A stretch of 44,060 nucleotides of DNA from Terriglobia bacterium (GTDB lineage Bacteria; Acidobacteriota; Terriglobia; UBA7540): assembly GCA_020072655.1 (NCBI GenBank), contig JAIQGH010000021.1, positions 17,775-61,834 of the forward strand. Direction: 5' to 3'. The notes beneath the pieces were generated by a model. That model was not told the DNA's origin. It worked only from the letters and a program-made list of their open reading frames with translations, and ran no database searches. Positions 18,141-35,228 of the stretch are shown here, piece after piece. Each line of letters begins with the position of its first letter. The first letter of the stretch is position 1. Position numbers and translations under genes: made by a program.

Positions 18141-18845
18141 TCAGAAGTTCTCCTCCGCGAAAAGGTTCGGAAACACCTTGCGATAAATCGCCATCCCGAG
18201 CGCCGCGTGCATGCCGAGGGCATCGAGCGCCGCGATCTCCTCGTCGGTGGTGATGCCGCCCGCGGCGGTGAGGGGCAGGCTGGTCGCCGCGCGCAAGCTA
18301 CGGAACCAATCGATATTCGTTCCCTGAAGCTTTCCCTCCGCGTCGATGTAAGTGCACAGAAATTCCGAGCAGTACGGCTCAAGCTCCGCCAACGCGTCGG
18401 CCGAGCGGAGCGGGAGGGTTTCGCGCCAGCCGCGGATCGCCACGCGGTCGCCCAGCGAATCGACGGCGATCATGATCTTCTCGCGGGGGAGGGCGGCCGC
18501 AAGCGCTCGCAGGAATTCGTGATGAATTCCCTGCGAGGTAAATGCTGAACTGCCGACAATCACCTTGCGCGCGCCGTCAGCGACGGCTTGCTGTGCGCGC
18601 TCGACCGAGCGGATGCCGCCGCCCACGCGGCAGGGTTTGCGTGCGCACAACTCGCGGACAATGTCGGCGTTAGTCGAGCTTTCTGGGCCGCCAAGGGCAG
18701 CGTCCAGGTCAATCACTTGGATTTCCGGGTACGCGGCGAATTTCTCCAGCACCGCCAGCGGGTCAGGCAGCTCGAGCTTCTTCTCCCGCCCCTGAACGAG
18801 CTGGACAACTTTGCGGCCCATCAGGTCGATGCAAGGAATTACCAT
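18141..18845 (-). CDS. hisA: ProFAR isomerase HisA
   Basis: A 234-aa TIM-barrel enzyme catalysing the Amadori rearrangement of ProFAR to PRFAR in histidine synthesis. It has the catalytic Asp in VIPCIDLMGRKVVQL near residue 7, phosphate-binding GGGIRSVERA near 81-90, VIVGSSAFT near 101-109, the second catalytic region TYIDAEGKLQGTN near 170-182 and AAGGITTDEE near 198-207. ATG 18845 is correct; the open frame upstream to 18950 is read through a repeat array and is spurious. It is the last gene of the his operon, separated from hisF by array C. Confidence 0.93.
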   Translation of the reverse strand: MVIPCIDLMGRKVVQLVQGREKKLELPDPLAVLEKFAAYPEIQVIDLDAALGGPESSTNADIVRELCARKPCRVGGGIRSVERAQQAVADGARKVIVGSSAFTSQGIHHEFLRALAAALPREKIMIAVDSLGDRVAIRGWRETLPLRSADALAELEPYCSEFLCTYIDAEGKLQGTNIDWFRSLRAATSLPLTAAGGITTDEEIAALDALGMHAALGMAIYRKVFPNLFAEENF

Positions 18846-18859
18846 ACATGAACAGTAAG

Positions 18860-18964
18860 GGTTCTGGGTGCTAGGTGCTGGGGACTGGGGGCTGCGAACG
18901 ACGTTATCCGATGTTGCAGCACCTGACATCCAGAACCTAGAACCTAGCACCCAGCACCCAGCAC
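18860..18964. repeat. Inverted heptamer array C (hisF-hisA spacer)
   Basis: The left arm has five consecutive 7-nt words of the form GGNNCTR (18860-18894). The right arm has five words of the form CYAGNAC (18930-18964), the inverse of the left. The 35-nt centre has no ORF. The right arm ends one base before the complement of the hisF stop codon, so the array begins immediately after hisF. The word family is the same as in arrays E and F. Confidence 0.85.
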
Positions 18965-18965
18965 C

Positions 18966-19859
18966 TCAACCCAATCTTACCGGAACCCCCCGGGCCCGAA
19001 GATACTCCTTCAGGCTGCGAATCGTGTGCGTCTCATAGTGGAAAATCGAGGCAGCGAGCGCCGCGTCCGCCGCGCCGCGCAGGAAGACCTCGGCAAAATG
19101 CTCCGGACCGCCCGCTCCGCCCGAGGCGATGACGGGGATATGCACGGCATGCGAGATGGTTGCCGTCAGCACGCAGTCAAAGCCTGCCTGCGTGCCGTCC
19201 GCGTCCATCGAAGTCAGCAGAATCTCCCCGCAACCGAGCTTCTCGACACGTCGCGCCCACTCGACGGCATCGAGCCCGGTAGGGCGCGTGCCTCCGTAAG
19301 TCACCACCGTCCAGTTCGTGGCCGCAGGCCCCTCCGGGGGGGGAGCGGAAACTGGAACCCGGAAATTGGAAACTGGCACAACATCGCGTATCGTGTGGAG
19401 GACCTCGATCTTCGAATTTCGAATTTCGAGTTTCGAGTTTCCGGTTTCTTGTCCTCTTGTCCGCCGTGCGTCGATGGCCACGACTACCGCCTGGCTTCCG
19501 AAGCGCTCGGCAAGTTCCGTAATAAGTTCCGGTGTCTCGACGGCCGCCGTATTGATGGCTACTTTGTCGGAGCCCGCTCCGAGCAGCCGGCGCCCGTCCT
19601 CAAGCGTGCGCACGCCGCCGCCCACCGTAAGCGGGATGAAGAGCTTGCGCGCCACGCGGTTGACGGTATCCATGAGCGTGGCCCGGCCTTCGCGCGAGGC
19701 GGAGATATCGAGCATCACCAACTCGTCCGCGCCCTCGCGGTTGTAAACCGCGGCCAACTCGCCCGGATCCCCCGCGTCGCGCAGGTTCACGAATTGGATC
19801 CCCTTCACGACGCGTCCATCCTTGCAGTCGAGGCACGGGATGATGCGTTTGGCAAACAT
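18966..19859 (-). CDS. hisF: Imidazole glycerol phosphate synthase subunit HisF, with in-frame insertion
   Basis: A 297-aa TIM-barrel cyclase subunit. With HisH it converts PRFAR and ammonia to IGP and AICAR. Catalytic Asp11 (PCLDCKDG) and Asp130 (VVAIDARR) are at the standard positions, and the partner of Thermotoga Asp176 is at 219 ([10 protein letters not shown]). HisF is normally about 253 aa; the extra 43-45 residues lie between Arg133 and Asn182 and are encoded by a palindromic repeat (19320-19454). The rest, including [10 protein letters not shown] near 80-89 and [11 protein letters not shown] near 245-255, is intact, so the enzyme may still work. It starts 14 nt after the end of the S23 element. 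Confidence 0.93.
19320..19454. repeat. Inverted heptamer array D, inserted in hisF coding sequence
   Basis: The left arm at 19348-19375 is four 7-nt words of the form GAANYYG. The right arm at 19411-19450 has about six words of the form TTTCGAR or similar, inverse to the left. The core of about 35 nt contains GGCACAACATC and CTCGATCTTCG. The insert has no stop in the hisF frame and its length fits a multiple of three. The core is clearly related to array G (28982-29130). Exact ends cannot be fixed by eye because no target duplication is obvious. Confidence 0.85.
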
Positions 19860-20329: not shown

Positions 20330-20926
20330 CTACGGTAACTCCAAGAAATTCCCCAAAACGCGAAGCCCCACATCGCCCGATTTTTCCGGGTGGAACTGCA
20401 CCGCCCAAGCGTTTTCCTTCTGGACAGCGGCGGCGTAAGTTTCTCCGTACTCGGTGACCGCGACGGATTCCGGCGTTACAGGCCCGAAAAACGAGTGGCA
20501 AAAGTAGACGAAGCTGCCGTCGGCAATATCCTTGAACAAACCGCCGTCCGCTCGAATCCGAAGCTGGTTCCAACCCACCTGCGGCACCTTCGGCAGCACC
20601 CGAAAGCGGATCACGGTGCCGCACAGCAGGCCGAGGCCCGCGACGCCCGGCGCCTCCTCGCTCGATTCGTACAGGGCCTGGAGACCAAGGCAGATGCCGA
20701 GGTACGGGGTGCCCACGCCAATTCTCTTCCGCAACTCGGCGAGCAGGCGGCGCTCGGCGAGCGCCTTCATCATCGCGCCGAAGTGCCCCTGGCCCGGCAA
20801 GATAATCTTCTCAGCCTCCGCGAGGAGCTCCGGCGAGCTGACCGGCGTTGCGGGGTAGCCGAGATACTGCACGGCCTTCAGGACCGAGCCGACGTTGCCG
20901 GCGCCATAATCCACGAGCGCAATCAC
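20330..20926 (-). CDS. hisH: Imidazole glycerol phosphate synthase glutaminase subunit HisH
   Basis: A 198-aa class I glutamine amidotransferase that supplies ammonia to HisF. The nucleophile Cys is in [11 protein letters not shown] near residue 80, and the His-Glu pair is in [12 protein letters not shown] near 176-187. [12 protein letters not shown] is at the N-terminus and PGQGHFGAM near 45-53. The GTG at 20926 is chosen because GAAAGG lies 6 nt upstream and GTG overlaps the hisB stop (GTGA); an ATG at 20980 lies inside hisB. The TAG stop is one base from the S23 element arm. Confidence 0.93.
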
Positions 20927-21516
20927 AGCAACCCTTTCGTAGACGGAAGTTGACTCTTCAGCCGCGCGTCGCGCGAACACGCGTAGCGCAAAGCGCGCGC
21001 GAAGGCCTTGAAGAGCGCCTCCACCGCGTGGTGGCTGGAGCGGCCGTACGCTACCTTAAGGTGCAGGTTCGCCCCAGCGTTTGTCGCAAAACTATAGAAG
21101 AAGTCCTCGAGCAGTTCCGTCTCGAGATCGCCGACGCGGCGCGCCTTGATGGGCGCGCGGAGAGCGAGGTACGGACGCCCGCTCAAATCAATCGCCGCCA
21201 CGGCGAGGGTCTCGTCCATGGGCATCACGAAGTACCCGGCGCGGTTGATGCCCTTCTTCGCTCCCAGCGCCTGCTTTACGGCTTGTCCGAGGACGATGCC
21301 GATATCTTCCACGGTGTGGTGCTGATCGACGTCCAGATCACCGCGCGCTCTGAGTTCCAAATCGAAACCGCCGTGGCGCGCGAAAAGTTCCAACATGTGA
21401 TCGAGAAAGCGGATGCCGGTCGAAATCGTATAACGCCCGCGGCCGTCGAGGTTGAGCCGCGCCCGGATGTCGGTCTCAGTGGTCTGGCGGTGTAGGCTGG
21501 CGGTGCGGCCTCTCAT
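20923..21516 (-). CDS. hisB: Imidazoleglycerol-phosphate dehydratase
   Basis: A 197-aa manganese enzyme that dehydrates IGP to imidazole acetol phosphate. Metal-binding [14 protein letters not shown] near residues 66-79 and the second set [17 protein letters not shown] near 161-177 are present; [13 protein letters not shown] is near 38-50. Only the dehydratase domain is present, with no fused histidinol-phosphatase. ATG 21516 makes an ATGA overlap with the hisC stop; ATG 21525 is an in-frame alternative three codons upstream. Confidence 0.93.
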
Positions 21517-22637
21517 GACACCCATCCTGTCGAGGAGAATCGCGCGAACTTGCTCCAGTTCTTTCGGCCATCGCGTGATTCGATAAGACCGCGCAACCGG
21601 CGGAGCTCGCGCATCAGCCGCCCGGTTTGCGCCGTCGAGCCCACGGTGAAGCGCAGGAAGCCGCGCAAGCGCGGGTCGTAATTCCAGTCGCGCACCAGGA
21701 TGCCTTGGGCGCGCAGCCGCCGGCCGATTTCCGGGGCGTTCGCGCCCAGCTCGGTCAGCACAAAGTTCGCCTTGCTTGGGACGTAGGGAATCTTCTGCGC
21801 TTCAAACCACGCGATCAGCTTGGCGCGATTGGCGCGGACCTCGGCAGCATAGCGCCGGGCGTAGTCGGTATGCTCAATCGCGGCGAGCGCGCCCACGAGG
21901 GCCAGTGAGTTGACGGGGAACGGGTTCTGCCCGCGGCGCAGGTCGTCTGCCGTCTGCGCGTTGGTCAGAATGCAGCCCAGGCGCAGCGCGGCAAGCCCGA
22001 AAGCCTTCGAGAAGGTGCGCGTCACGATCAGGTTGGGGTATTTGCGAATCCAGGGCAGCACGGTTTCGCCGGAGAAGTCATGGTAAGCCTCGTCGACCAC
22101 GAAAGCGGTTTGCGGGGCCGATTCGAGCATCGTCCGCAGATCGCGCTTGGGGATGACCGTGCCCGTGGGATTGTTGGGGCTGGCAAAAGCTGCCCAGCGG
22201 ATTCCTTTGCCGAGCGCGCGCAGGACATGATCGAGCGGCAACCGAAAGCGCTCGTCGTAATAGACGCGCTCCGTGCGCCCGCCCGCCACTTCGTGAAAAA
22301 ACTGATAGACCGGAAACGTCGGCGCAGGCACGAGCAGGGCATCTCCGGGCTCGACGAAAGTTTCGCAGATTACCTTGACGGCGTCGTCGGTCCCGTTGGT
22401 GAGGACCAGTTCCTGGGGTTTCACTCCAAAATAGCGCGCGAGCTTGACGCGGCCTTCCGCGTATTCGGGATAGCAGGATAAACCATCCCGGGTCATAGCT
22501 CGTCGCAGGGCGCGGACAACCTGCGGAGCGCAGCCCACCGTGTTCTCATTGAAATCGAGGCGCAGTTTCCCGCCGCGGCCCTCCAGGGGTGGCCGGTATT
22601 TGCTCAGGCGTGCGTAAGATTTGCGGGGTTGGAGCAT
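21513..22637 (-). CDS. hisC: Histidinol-phosphate aminotransferase
   Basis: A 374-aa PLP-dependent fold type I aminotransferase converting imidazole acetol phosphate to histidinol phosphate. [11 protein letters not shown] is near residues 27-37, [11 protein letters not shown] near 80, [12 protein letters not shown] near 153-164, and the PLP lysine is in [17 protein letters not shown] near 210-226. ATG 22637 starts the normal N-terminus; the open frame to 22700 reads through a hairpin repeat and is rejected. It overlaps hisB by 4 nt. Confidence 0.93.
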
Positions 22638-22657
22638 AGATTGCCGCCGCAGGCATT

Positions 22658-22714
22658 GTAGAGACGGCCCGATGGGCCGTCTCGGAAGGAGACGCTCCAC
22701 CGGAGCGTCTCTAC
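22658..22714. repeat. Doublet-hairpin repeat, copy 2 (hisD-hisC spacer)
   Basis: There are two perfect 10-bp stems with 3-nt loops: GAGACGGCCC/GGGCCGTCTC at 22661-22683 and GAGACGCTCC/GGAGCGTCTC at 22689-22711. The outer ends GTAGAGAC (22658) and GTCTCTAC (22707) are also inverse. The unit lies between hisD and hisC inside the operon, ending three bases from the hisD stop codon. It has the same doublet plan as 14448-14513. Confidence 0.9.
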
Positions 22715-22716
22715 GT

Positions 22717-23976
22717 CTACGAAAACCTCACATCCACGGAATACGCGTGCGCCTTCAATCCTTCCGCGTTGGCCAGCGTGACGATCGCCGGGCGAAGGCG
22801 CGCCAGGCCGCGTCGGCTCAATTTCTGCACTGAAATGGCCTTGACGAAATCCGCCGCGCTCAAGCCTCCGCGCAGCCGCGCCGCGCCCCCGGTGGGCAGG
22901 ATATGGTTGGTGCCGGAGGCGTAATCGCCCGCCGCGACCGGGCTGCAGCCGCCCAGGAAAATCGAGCCGGCGGACTCGATGCGGTCGAGAAACCTGACGG
23001 CGTCATCGAGCAACGTCAGGTGCTCAGGGGCGAGCCGGTTCACGATCTCGACGGCTTCATCCAAATCAGGCGTCAGGATGATGGCTCCTTGCCGCGCCAG
23101 CGCCTTTCGAGCGATCGGCAGGCGCAGCTCGGAGAGCATCTGCTGCACGGCTTTCTGCACGCGCAGCCCGAGCGCTCGCGACGAGGTCACGAAGATGGCG
23201 ATCGCATCCGGATCGTGCTCAGCCTGCGCGACGAGGTCGGCGGCGATCCAGCGCGGGTTCCCGCGCGACCCTATGACGACGAGCTCGGACGGGCCAGCGA
23301 CGAAGTCGATCCCACACTCGCCCGCCAGCAGTTTCTTGGCCGCAGCCACGTAGCGATTGCCAGGTCCGACGATCTTGTCCGCGCGTGGTACGCTCTTCGT
23401 GCCAAAGGCGAAGGCAGCGATGGCCTGCGCGCCGCCCAGGCGGAAGACCCGCCGGATGCCAAGCACGTCGGCCGCCACCAGCACTTCGGGCGCGGGTCGC
23501 GGCGAAGTGATGACAATCTCCTTGACACCCGCCACCTGCGCCGGAATGACGCCCATCAGAACGGTAGAGGGCAACGGGAAACGGCCGCCGGGAACGTAAC
23601 AGGCCACGCGGTCAAGCGGCCGGATAATCTGGCCCACACGGATGCCCGCTCCGTTCGAGCTTTGCCACTCGCGCGGCACTTGACGCTGCGCGAAGGCCCG
23701 GATGTTGCGCGCCGCAACCCGAAGCGCCCCGACGAAGCCTTTTGCGACTTGCTGATGAGCCTCGCGGATCTCGCCGCGGCTCACCTCGAAGCCAACCTCG
23801 CGAAGATCCAAGCCATCAAATTTGCGGGCGTAGCGAACGAGCGCGCCATCGCCCTGGCGCCGCACATCGGCGAGGATCCGCGCGGCAACCCTCTCGGCGT
23901 CCCTCAAGCTGGATCGCCGCGCCCGCTCGAGACGCGTTAGCGCCGGTTTATCCGTACTTAGAATCACTTGCAACAT
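22717..23976 (-). CDS. hisD: Histidinol dehydrogenase
   Basis: A 419-aa Zn-dependent NAD enzyme that oxidises histidinol to histidine in two steps. YVPGGRFPLPSTVLMG near residues 127-142, KIVGPGNRYVAAAKKLL near 200-216, GPSELVVIG near 226-234, LAPEHLTLLDDA near 324-335 and ASGTNHILPTGGAARL near 362-377 match family blocks and include the catalytic Glu-His pair. It is full length. ATG 23976 has no overlap with hisG because a 316-nt repeat region separates the two genes. Confidence 0.94.
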   Translation of the reverse strand: MLQVILSTDKPALTRLERARRSSLRDAERVAARILADVRRQGDGALVRYARKFDGLDLREVGFEVSRGEIREAHQQVAKGFVGALRVAARNIRAFAQRQVPREWQSSNGAGIRVGQIIRPLDRVACYVPGGRFPLPSTVLMGVIPAQVAGVKEIVITSPRPAPEVLVAADVLGIRRVFRLGGAQAIAAFAFGTKSVPRADKIVGPGNRYVAAAKKLLAGECGIDFVAGPSELVVIGSRGNPRWIAADLVAQAEHDPDAIAIFVTSSRALGLRVQKAVQQMLSELRLPIARKALARQGAIILTPDLDEAVEIVNRLAPEHLTLLDDAVRFLDRIESAGSIFLGGCSPVAAGDYASGTNHILPTGGAARLRGGLSAADFVKAISVQKLSRRGLARLRPAIVTLANAEGLKAHAYSVDVRFS

Positions 23977-23989
23977 AATCAGAGCATGC

Positions 23990-24299
23990 TGAATAGTGAA
24001 TTGTGAATTGCCAGATTACCAGTTTGCTGGAAAACCCTCGGGCAATGTCATTCTGAGCCCTTCGCCTGTCGTCCTGAGCGAAGCGAAGGATCTCAGCATT
24101 CCGCTCAGGGTAAACTCCGCGAAGAATCCCGGCATTCGCAGAATCAGGCAAATACGGAGATCCTTCGTCGTCCCGACCAGATCGGGACTCCTCAGGATGA
24201 CAACCTCACACGTCTCTCAGCCTCCTGTCGGCGCTCGACCTCGACCCAGCCTTGATTTCCAGACTCACCATTCACAATTCAGCATTCACCATTCAAATT
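23990..24299. repeat. Composite inverted heptamer array M (hisG-hisD spacer)
   Basis: The outer left arm 23990-24010 is three 7-nt words of the form TGAATWG. The outer right arm 24265-24299 is five words of the form TCANNAT, the inverse. A REP-like hairpin (24071-24202) sits inside. The hisG stop codon is formed by the first three bases of the last right-arm word. The 316-nt hisD-hisG gap contains no gene; it is filled by these repeats. Confidence 0.8.
24071..24202. repeat. REP-like hairpin, copy 2, nested in array M
   Basis: The left arm GTCCTGAGCGAAGCGAAGG begins at 24071, and the right arm beginning GAGATCCTTCG (24158) ends CTCAGGATGAC at 24202. A further perfect 7-bp hairpin GTCCCGA/TCGGGAC sits in the right arm at 24170-24188. 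The arms match the copies at 6994-7069 and 31226-31299. Confidence 0.85.
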
Positions 24300-25162
24300 A
24301 CGATCTTATTCAGCGGGTACTCGACGATCCCCTGCGCGTTCGCGGCTTTCAGGCGCGGGATGATTTCGCGCACGGTCTTCTCTTCGATGATCGTGTTGAC
24401 GGCCAGCCAATCGGGGTCGCTGAGATTCGAGACCGTGGGCCGCTTCAGGGCCGGCAGCACGGCAAGGACATTTTCCAGGTCGGCACGCCGCACGTTGAGC
24501 ATCAAGCCCACCTTGCCCGACGCCTCGATCGCACCCTTGAGCAGCATGACGATGGTCTCGATCTTGCTTCGTTTCCAGGCCTCGGCCCAGGCGGCGTTGT
24601 TGGCGATGAACTGGGTGTTCGATTCGAGCACGGTTTCCACGATGCGCAGGCCATTGGCGCGCAGCGAAGAGCCGGTCTCCGTGACCTCGACGATGGCGTC
24701 GGCGAGCACCGGCGGCTTCACTTCCGTAGCCCCCCAGGAAAACTCGACCTTGGCCTTTACACCGTTCCGCGCAAGGTAGCGCTCGGTGACCTTAACGAGT
24801 TCCGTGGCGATGATCTTGCCGTCCAGGTCCTTCACACTCTGGAAAGAGGATTTCTCGGGTACGGCCAGCACCCAGCGAACCTTGCCAAAGGTCTGCTTGG
24901 CGTAGACGAGGTCGGCGGCTTCGACCACGCTCGCATCGTTTTCGAGGATCCAGTCCTTGCCGGTCAGCCCGGCGTCCAGGATTCCGTCCTCGACGTAGCG
25001 GGCCATCTCCTGCGCGCGGATGAGCATACACTCGATCTCGTCATCATCGATGACCGGAAAATACGAACGCGGGTTGACGGTGATTTCGTATCCCGCGCGC
25101 CGGAAGAGTTCGAGCGTGGCGTCCTGAAGGCTTCCTTTGGGCAATCCCAGCTTCAACTTCAT
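24293..25162 (-). CDS. hisG: ATP phosphoribosyltransferase, long form
   Basis: A 289-aa first enzyme of histidine synthesis, joining ATP and PRPP. The N-terminus [33 protein letters not shown] near 66-76 and the PRPP-loop region [16 protein letters not shown] near 159-174 are present. The C-terminal about 75 residues ([21 protein letters not shown] and following) form the ACT-like regulatory domain of the long form, so histidine feedback inhibition without HisZ is expected. ATG 25162 overlaps the hisI stop (ATGA). Confidence 0.94.
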
Positions 25163-25548
25163 GTCTGGTTCTCCTGTCCGGCTTTGCCGTAAACCTCGGC
25201 GGGATCAAATTCGCGCTCGAGGATGATCTCCTCCCCCTCGGGTGTAAGCTTGCGGAAGAAGCACGATTTGTACCCCCTATGACAGCAGCCGGGACCGGTC
25301 AGATCGGCCTGGATTAGGAGCGCGTCCTGATCGCAGTCCACGCGAATCTCGCGCACCTTCAGCCGATGGCCCGAGGTTTCGCCCTTCGTCCAGAGTTTCT
25401 GGCGGCTGCGGCTGAAGAAGGTTACAAATCCTGACTCCAGCGTTTTTCGGTAAGCTTCGTCGTTCATATAGCCGAGCATCAGCACTTTGCCGCTGTGGCG
25501 ATCTTGGATGACGGCCGGAATAAGGCCGTCGCCGTACTTCAACTCCAT
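25159..25548 (-). CDS. hisI: Phosphoribosyl-AMP cyclohydrolase
   Basis: A 129-aa zinc enzyme opening the adenine ring of PR-AMP. The metal and active-site blocks [20 protein letters not shown] near residues 79-98 and [10 protein letters not shown] near 99-108 are complete. There is no fused HisE domain and no hisE in the window. ATG 25548 has GGGGGAG just upstream; the open frame extending to 25647 runs through the attenuator terminator and is rejected. It is the first structural gene of the his operon. Confidence 0.93.
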
Positions 25549-25631: not shown

Positions 25632-25663
25632 AAAAAGCCCGCTGCACCTTCGTGCCAGCGGGC
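25632..25663 (-). terminator. his attenuator terminator hairpin
   Basis: On the minus strand the RNA forms a GC-rich stem: GCCCGCU pairs with AGCGGGC and GCAC with GUGC, with one bulged G and the loop GAAG, and is followed by five U residues (25636-25632). It lies 84 nt upstream of the hisI start and 30 nt after the leader-peptide stop, the expected place for an attenuator. Confidence 0.85.
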
Positions 25664-25692
25664 CACCTTTCTTTCTGAAACCGGGCTGGGAC

Positions 25693-25761
25693 TCAAGCCG
25701 GCGGCCGCTGACACGTCACCGGAGACGAATGATGGTGATGATGTGCCAGCGCGCGTCGCAT
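25693..25761 (-). CDS. hisL: his leader peptide (five consecutive His codons)
   Basis: A 22-codon ORF beginning MRRALA, then five histidine codons in a row (25743-25729: CAT CAT CAC CAT CAT), then an 11-residue tail ending in Ala and TGA. It is the sensor of charged tRNA(His) for the attenuator. No clear ribosome site precedes the ATG; with the promoter proposed at 25776-25804 the message would start only about 8 nt upstream, so translation may be nearly leaderless. Confidence 0.85.
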   Translation of the reverse strand: MRRALAHHHHHSSPVTCQRPPA

Positions 25762-25775
25762 AATCAAGAATAGTC

Positions 25776-25804
25776 AGACTACAACGCCGGATAGACTTTG
25801 TCAA
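25776..25804 (-). promoter_or_regulatory. Candidate his operon promoter
   Basis: A perfect -35 box TTGACA (25804-25799) is followed after 17 nt by TAGTCT (25781-25776), a weak -10 match. The position just upstream of the leader peptide fits the his operon. The -10 element is not strong, so another start is possible. Confidence 0.5.
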
Positions 25805-28972: not shown

Positions 28973-28981
28973 GCGAGGCGG

Positions 28982-29130
28982 GAAACTGGAGATTGGAAAC
29001 TGGAAATTAGAAACTGGAAACTGGAAATTAGAAACTCGAAACTGGAAATTAGAAACTGGCACATCATCTTATTGGATGGGGCCGCGATCTTCGAGTTCCC
29101 AATTTCTCATTTCGTCTTTCTCTTCTTGAG
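28982..29130. repeat. Inverted heptamer array G (plsX-fabH spacer)
   Basis: The left arm is eleven consecutive 7-nt words of the form GARAYTR (28982-29058). The core contains GGCACATCATC and CGCGATCTTCGAG. The right arm about 29089-29130 has five to six words beginning TTC or TTT. The core and words match array D inside hisF. The plsX TAG is 9 nt upstream, and the fabH GAGG ribosome site lies at the right-arm edge. Confidence 0.85.
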
Positions 29131-30130: not shown

Positions 30131-30242
30131 TGATTGAGTGATTTTGCGATTGGGTGATTGAGCGATTGAAGAACTGAAGGATTGACGGGCAAATTCACTC
30201 AATCACTAAATCGCCAAATGGCTCAATCGCCCAATCACTCAA
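30131..30242. repeat. Inverted octamer array H (fabH-fabD spacer)
   Basis: The left arm 30131-30186 is seven 8-nt words of the form YGATTGRR. The right arm 30195-30242 is six words of the form TCRCYMAA, the inverse. The loop is only about 8 nt, so the RNA would form a long, imperfect hairpin between two co-transcribed genes. The fabH stop is 11 nt upstream. Confidence 0.85.
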
Positions 30243-30257
30243 TTTCCTGGGGTTTTC

Positions 30258-34784: not shown

Positions 34785-35228
34785 ATGTTTGTCCATATTT
34801 GGAGAATGCGAGGACGCAAGAAGCGCGCGGAAGACTACGAGAAGTTTGGCCGCCAGGTCACCTTGCCGGCCTTGAAGAAGCTGGATGGATGCGTGGACGC
34901 GCATTTCATTAGGGTCTTCGAGGCACGCAAACCGGAGTACCTGTGGCTGGTTTTCTGGCGAGACCAGGAAGCGCTGGAAGCCGCCCGCAATAATCCCGTC
35001 TGGAAAGACCAGATCAGGAAGTTCGAAGCCGGGAAGTTCTATAAGACAATCCCACTCGAACTGGTCTGTGAGTCGCTCGGCAGCTTTGGGGCCGTTGCCG
35101 AGAAGCCCAAGAAGGTTGAGAAGGCAGAGAAAGTCGAGAAGGCCGAGAAAGCGGTGAAGGCCGAGAAGCCGCCGAAGGACGAGGGTCCGGCCAAAGCCTT
35201 TGTCGCCCCCACGGTGGAAGGGGAGTAA
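34785..35228 (+). CDS. ABM-like protein with Lys/Glu-rich repeat tail
   Basis: A 147-aa protein. Residues 1-95 look like a ferredoxin-like antibiotic-biosynthesis-monooxygenase (ABM) domain (start MFVHIWRMRG, LVFWRDQEALEAARNNPVW near 54-72). Residues 103-135 are a low-complexity tail of KAEK and VEKAEK repeats, probably an extended or helical charged segment. GGAGGGA precedes ATG 34785. The role is unknown; the unusual place between etfB and etfA suggests a link to electron transfer or co-expression only. Confidence 0.65.
   Translation: MFVHIWRMRGRKKRAEDYEKFGRQVTLPALKKLDGCVDAHFIRVFEARKPEYLWLVFWRDQEALEAARNNPVWKDQIRKFEAGKFYKTIPLELVCESLGSFGAVAEKPKKVEKAEKVEKAEKAVKAEKPPKDEGPAKAFVAPTVEGE

Follow-up and report, generated by a model that had tools for sequence, protein, structure and literature searches.

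The eight-gene operon hisIGDCBHFA in the window (the whole 44,060-nt stretch of DNA analysed here) lies directly 3' of an element that we interpret, with a probability of about 0.9, as a classical ribosome-mediated transcription attenuator sensing charged tRNA-His and controlling this operon. Its sequence parts are present upstream of hisI, they are conserved and covary among relatives, they are associated with his operons, and the leader RNA switches between alternative folds in silico; the start site, translation of the ORF, ribosome stalling, and termination in vivo are what we infer. Ribosome-mediated attenuation had been proposed in a first-pass annotation of the window, and the relatives, the covariation, and the in-silico switch support this proposal. 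Two further observations extend it: the element is spread across the class and more widely, and the leader ORF has neither a predicted 5' UTR nor a Shine-Dalgarno sequence.

Leader layout and surroundings of the his operon

On the minus strand 5' of hisI, the leader comprises a -35 box, a 22-codon ORF, a terminator followed by a U5 tract, and three hairpins that compete with one another. The -35 hexamer (TTGACA, 25799-25804), read from the sequence, is separated by a 17-nt spacer from the -10 hexamer (TAGTCT, 25776-25781), and the start codon of the leader lies 14 nt 3' of the latter. The ORF (25693-25761, ATG at 25761) encodes MRRALAHHHHHSSPVTCQRPPA before its stop codon, has no Shine-Dalgarno sequence, and contains five consecutive His control codons (CAT CAT CAC CAT CAT, 25729-25743); the corresponding ORFs of relatives are also His-rich. 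The coordinates and base-level statements of the first-pass annotation were right except for one detail of segment 4, and the terminator that it placed before hisI is present as a 3:4 hairpin (GCCCGCTGGCACGAAGGTGCAGCGGGC, 25637-25663), recognised from sequence, alignment, and fold, with the U5 tract (T5 in the DNA) at 25632-25636. The T5 is spaced 83 nt from the hisI ATG (25548). A scan for consensus promoters and terminators gave no match at the leader because the -10 box matches at only 3 of 6 positions and the terminator has a bulge.

Four minus-strand segments make up the competing hairpins. Segment 1 (25743-25751), defined by fold and alignment, forms 9 bp with segment 2, and this helix is extended inward through the His codons. 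Segment 2 (GUGUCAGCGG, 25705-25714) lies inside the ORF, 3' of the His run and 5' of the stop codon, and is a partner of either segment 1 or segment 3. Segment 3 (25652-25663) is the 5' arm of the terminator and forms the antiterminator by 10 bp with segment 2, whose GTGTCAGC spans 25714-25707, the 2:3 pairing reaching 25705. Segments 1 and 3 do share a sequence as claimed, GCTGGCAC, at 25750-25743 and 25659-25652, respectively. The related claim that segments 2 and 4 are both complementary to it stands for segment 2, but segment 4 (GUGC-AGCGGGC) leaves one G bulged when paired with segment 3, so that GCUGGCAC has no second exact complement there.

The first structural gene, hisI (phosphoribosyl-AMP cyclohydrolase, 25159-25548; Pfam PF01502 and NCBIfam), is followed on the minus strand by hisG (24293-25162), hisD (22717-23976), hisC (21513-22700), hisB (20923-21525), hisH (20330-20980), hisF (18966-19859), and hisA (18141-18950), of which hisG, hisF, and hisA were assigned by NCBIfam and the others by Pfam/NCBIfam. 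The nearest named relatives of the window are metagenome assemblies of Terriglobia or subdivision 13 Acidobacteriota. Within the operon, between hisH and hisF, there is a gene for a 23S rRNA-intervening-sequence-type protein (IVP; PF05635, 19898-20275, minus strand) with GGGTGCTGGGTTCTAGG-type low-complexity repeats on both sides. The hisF product is 297 aa long against a 254-position model, with an in-frame low-complexity insert in mid-gene (AAACTCGAAATTCGAAATTCG..., about 19455-19310, minus strand), which may be an artefact of assembly or reflect the in-frame invasion of a coding gene by a repeat. Short tandem repeats were also noted at 28981-29059 (7/21-nt units), 30132-30243 (16 nt), and 35097-35183 (9/18 nt), the first resembling in kind those flanking the IVP gene. 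As for other attenuators in the same genome, no leader ORF with a terminator was found upstream of trpE or ilvB.

Alternative folds and covariation of the competing helices

The features by which an attenuator is recognised are found together here: a short His-rich leader ORF matching the amino acid of the operon, an intrinsic terminator between this ORF and the first gene, an antiterminator (2:3) opposed to that terminator, and a 1:2 helix over the control codons, the last seen in the family and weak beyond it. The minimum-energy fold of 25775-25628 consists of 1:2 plus 3:4. Alternative folding, a check suggested in the first-pass annotation, was performed with the RNA under the ribosome footprint masked, the limit of approximately 12 nt 3' of the decoded codon being taken from PMC4833913, and the predicted fold flips from 2:3 to 3:4 with ribosome position. 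With the ribosome on the first or the last His codon, 2:3 forms 10 of 10 pairs once segment 3 is out and lasts until the U tract is reached. When the ribosome occupies the stop codon, 3:4 forms 8 of 8 pairs and is the only helix possible. Without a ribosome, 1:2 comes first and is overtaken thermodynamically only once segment 3 is complete, so the ribosome-free state depends on kinetics.

These states suggest how the element would work. Judging from the promoter position, transcription would start a few nucleotides 5' of the leader AUG, and, considering also the missing Shine-Dalgarno sequence, a ribosome would initiate the peptide at the RNA 5' end or close to it. Under histidine scarcity, this ribosome would stall at the His run and mask segment 1, leaving segment 2 free to pair with the emerging segment 3, such that no terminator would form and the polymerase would continue into hisI. 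With ample histidine, the ribosome would reach the UGA and mask segment 2, the 3:4 terminator would form, and transcription would end before hisI. If no ribosome is present, 1:2 would be the first helix to form.

All 31 hisI upstream regions of the window's family align with the window, at identities to it of 46-81%, and the mutually exclusive pairings described for the window are kept across the 31 leaders. Helix 1:2 is paired in 85.5% of cells, 2:3 in 92.7%, and 3:4 in 97.8%, compared with 31-48%, 32-44%, and 28-50%, respectively, in slid controls in which the partner arm was displaced by 1-3 columns. Two-sided changes within the family are present but few, and the pair-count shuffle control is only moderately exceeded, in both cases because the arms are nearly invariant; stronger support comes from the slid controls and from a swap of arms between families. 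Antiterminator and terminator arms differ between families yet change in step, the arm pairs being CAGCGGG/CCCGCUG in the window's family, GGUGGCGG/CCGCCACC in L202, and CCGGAGGG/CCCUCCGG in L228 and L234. When arms were swapped among 18 families, own arms outpaired foreign arms in 245 of 306 cases, and in these families the leader-terminator duplex exceeded dinucleotide shuffles (Fisher p about 5e-9). Antiterminators of the f5 and f6 leaders mostly fell short of significance (2/7 in each), as did those of both f29 leaders (L188 and L229). The folding energy of the leader (z of -2.1) is modestly unusual and not decisive by itself; the case for the element rests on the comparative evidence.

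The comparison of relatives had been recommended in the first-pass annotation, which regarded relatives without the His run or the pairings as the outcome that would speak against it. Overall, this outcome was not seen, and the His-rich ORF and the competing pairings are retained; however, four of the 31 family leaders (L086, L101, L107, and L110) hold just 2-3 nearby His codons. Control may be relaxed in these four members or may have moved partly to Arg codons. The eroded runs (L101:22-156, L110:1335-1469, L086, and L107) often show CAY changed to CGY (Arg), and the RNA pairings are kept there.

Across the 18 families, the 1:2 duplex gave a weaker signal (Fisher p about 9e-4), with few single families significant. 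This modest support beyond the family, and the fact that no Rfam family explains the region, would fit attenuation in which the His ORF is incidental and a different signal, either a protein or a riboswitch-like ligand, is sensed. We consider this very unlikely, given that the codon specificity fits the controlled pathway in every match, that no conserved aptamer-like domain was seen beyond the competing arms, and that T-box and other Rfam models did not match.

Specificity, spread and predicted start of the leader

Runs of five CAY codons occur five times in the 4.36-Mb genome (both strands), four of them in longer frames, and the one 5' of hisI is the sole run within a short leader-like ORF in the whole genome. 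We then defined a strict scan, in which a short ORF had to contain four or more His within nine codons and to have a terminator 25-130 nt 3' of it, and applied it to all loci collected. As a positive control, it recovered hisL of E. coli as the single match in 5 kb, and no match was obtained away from his genes in about 3.2 Mb (both strands counted). Positive loci amounted to 27 of 31 in the window's family. Among 39 short class fragments, which by construction contain hisI upstream sequence only, 28 were positive. In the genome collection, 19 of 80 loci were positive, all 19 labelled Acidobacteriota, and the his loci outside the class yielded 14 of 60. The attenuator arrangement is not due to chance.

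Within the window's class, the element is also present in other families. Outside the class, all 14 strict matches are located at the head of the his operon, whichever gene leads: hisI at eight loci (L183, L185, L186, L191, L193, L199, L202, and L211), hisG at L188 and L237, hisD at L228 and L234, and hisZ at L217 and L229. Among these 60 his loci, the majority lack the full element, which may reflect loss, another form of control, or elements missed. When the terminator criterion was dropped, nine more operon heads with a short ORF and at least four clustered His codons appeared (L187, L189, L194, L196, L206, L207, L235, L238, and L239); having no terminator by the criteria of the scan, they perhaps represent translational or Rho-type attenuation. 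No His leader was found upstream of hisI in three class members (L150, L151, and L036), where hisI may not head the operon or the element may have been lost.

A functional His-rich peptide, for example a metal-binding one, whose transcript is just ended by the terminator without any attenuation, would account for the conservation of the ORF in 31 genomes of the family, and His runs can bind metals. This explanation is highly improbable, however, as the peptide outside the His run varies between families while the RNA pairings persist, the conserved C-terminal residues in f1 coincide with RNA segment 2, the antiterminator arms co-vary with the terminator arms, and the element is always at the head of a his operon even where gene order differs.

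Promoters with at least 9 of 12 consensus matches precede 56 of the 72 leaders, compared with 57 of 3000 random ATGs, and in 52 of these 56 leaders the -10 box is 8-14 nt from the start codon. If transcription begins about 7 nt past the -10 box, the predicted 5' UTR is roughly 0-8 nt. The Shine-Dalgarno match is at most 3 nt in 61 of the 72 leaders and 4-6 nt in all hisI starts examined (n=11); random ATGs match about as poorly as the leaders do, which indicates that a Shine-Dalgarno sequence is absent and not that it is avoided. With a start site predicted from the promoter position and the missing Shine-Dalgarno sequence, translation of the sensor peptide would begin on an RNA that is leaderless or almost so. 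In three Acidobacteria genomes, an average of 13.3% of genes were predicted to be leaderless (PMC3160421). The promoter just 5' of the leader, the conservation of all parts, and the specificity of the scan for his operons leave next to no room for a constitutive terminator of an upstream unit combined with a chance His run, despite a hairpin that is strong by itself and a PilZ gene upstream of the leader on the same strand as the operon.

Known attenuators and significance for Acidobacteriota

The his leader of E. coli has a six-segment layout, whereas the window leader has four segments, with segment 2 inside the ORF. The attenuator proposed here otherwise resembles enterobacterial hisL (Rfam RF00514, His_leader) in its His-codon run in a short ORF, its competing hairpins, its U-rich intrinsic terminator, and its position at the head of the his operon, and the His run is 65 nt from the terminator in the window versus 73 nt in E. 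coli hisL. It differs further in having no Shine-Dalgarno sequence, almost no predicted 5' UTR, and hisI rather than hisG as first gene. The RF00514 covariance model (gathering cut-off 49 bits; 131.6 bits for E. coli) matched neither the window nor any of 19 Acidobacteriota loci, and Rfam searches of the window at the gathering cut-off and at E 10 returned only sub-threshold chance matches. The four-segment 1:2, 2:3, 3:4 layout is like that of the trp operon leader (Rfam RF00513), which uses Trp instead of His codons and has another operon and other sequences; the RF00513 covariance score was a weak 12.7 bits against a cut-off of 41.

Histidine attenuators of Bacillus cereus, Peptostreptococcaceae, and Erysipelotrichales have 3-5 His codons and a terminator plus antiterminator before his genes or hisZ (PMC9413887, PMC2965389). 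They share with the present leader a His-codon peptide, a terminator, and an antiterminator 5' of his or hisZ, but belong to another phylum, the Firmicutes, and the likeness is one of described parts. The trpL of Sinorhizobium meliloti is a reported leaderless attenuator mRNA with its leader ORF at the very 5' end (PMC7298713), a position predicted likewise for the Acidobacteriota leader; it differs in its Trp specificity, in coming from Alphaproteobacteria, and in a start site that is reported there and predicted here.

To date, his attenuators have been described in Gammaproteobacteria and some Firmicutes (PMC9413887, PMC4833913), and almost none of the predicted Acidobacteria attenuators has a known function (PMC2965389). 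A survey with Rfam models proposed that amino acid attenuators may originate in gammaproteobacteria, with very few transfers (PMC3766115). In Rfam and in the literature outside subscription papers, we found no description of a his attenuator in Acidobacteriota, which fits the hunch in the first-pass annotation that such control is undescribed for the phylum. What is most likely new is the wide presence in Acidobacteriota with sequences of their own, the four-segment trp-like layout, and the predicted leaderless or near-leaderless sensor ORF.

There is perhaps an even chance that his attenuation is old and widespread in Acidobacteriota, that it was kept at the operon head while the first gene changed (hisI, hisG, hisD, or hisZ), that its origin or divergence was independent of the his leader of Gammaproteobacteria, and that its leaderless sensor ORF is entered at the RNA 5' end. 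That a his attenuator is conserved across Acidobacteriota, with sequences of its own, argues that surveys based on sequence models overlook such switches, and that attenuation either predates current estimates or evolved more than once. Because the 5' UTR is predicted to be missing, the coupling of the first ribosome to RNA polymerase by leaderless initiation becomes testable, and the attenuator offers a nutrient-sensing readout in a soil phylum that is major but poorly cultivated.
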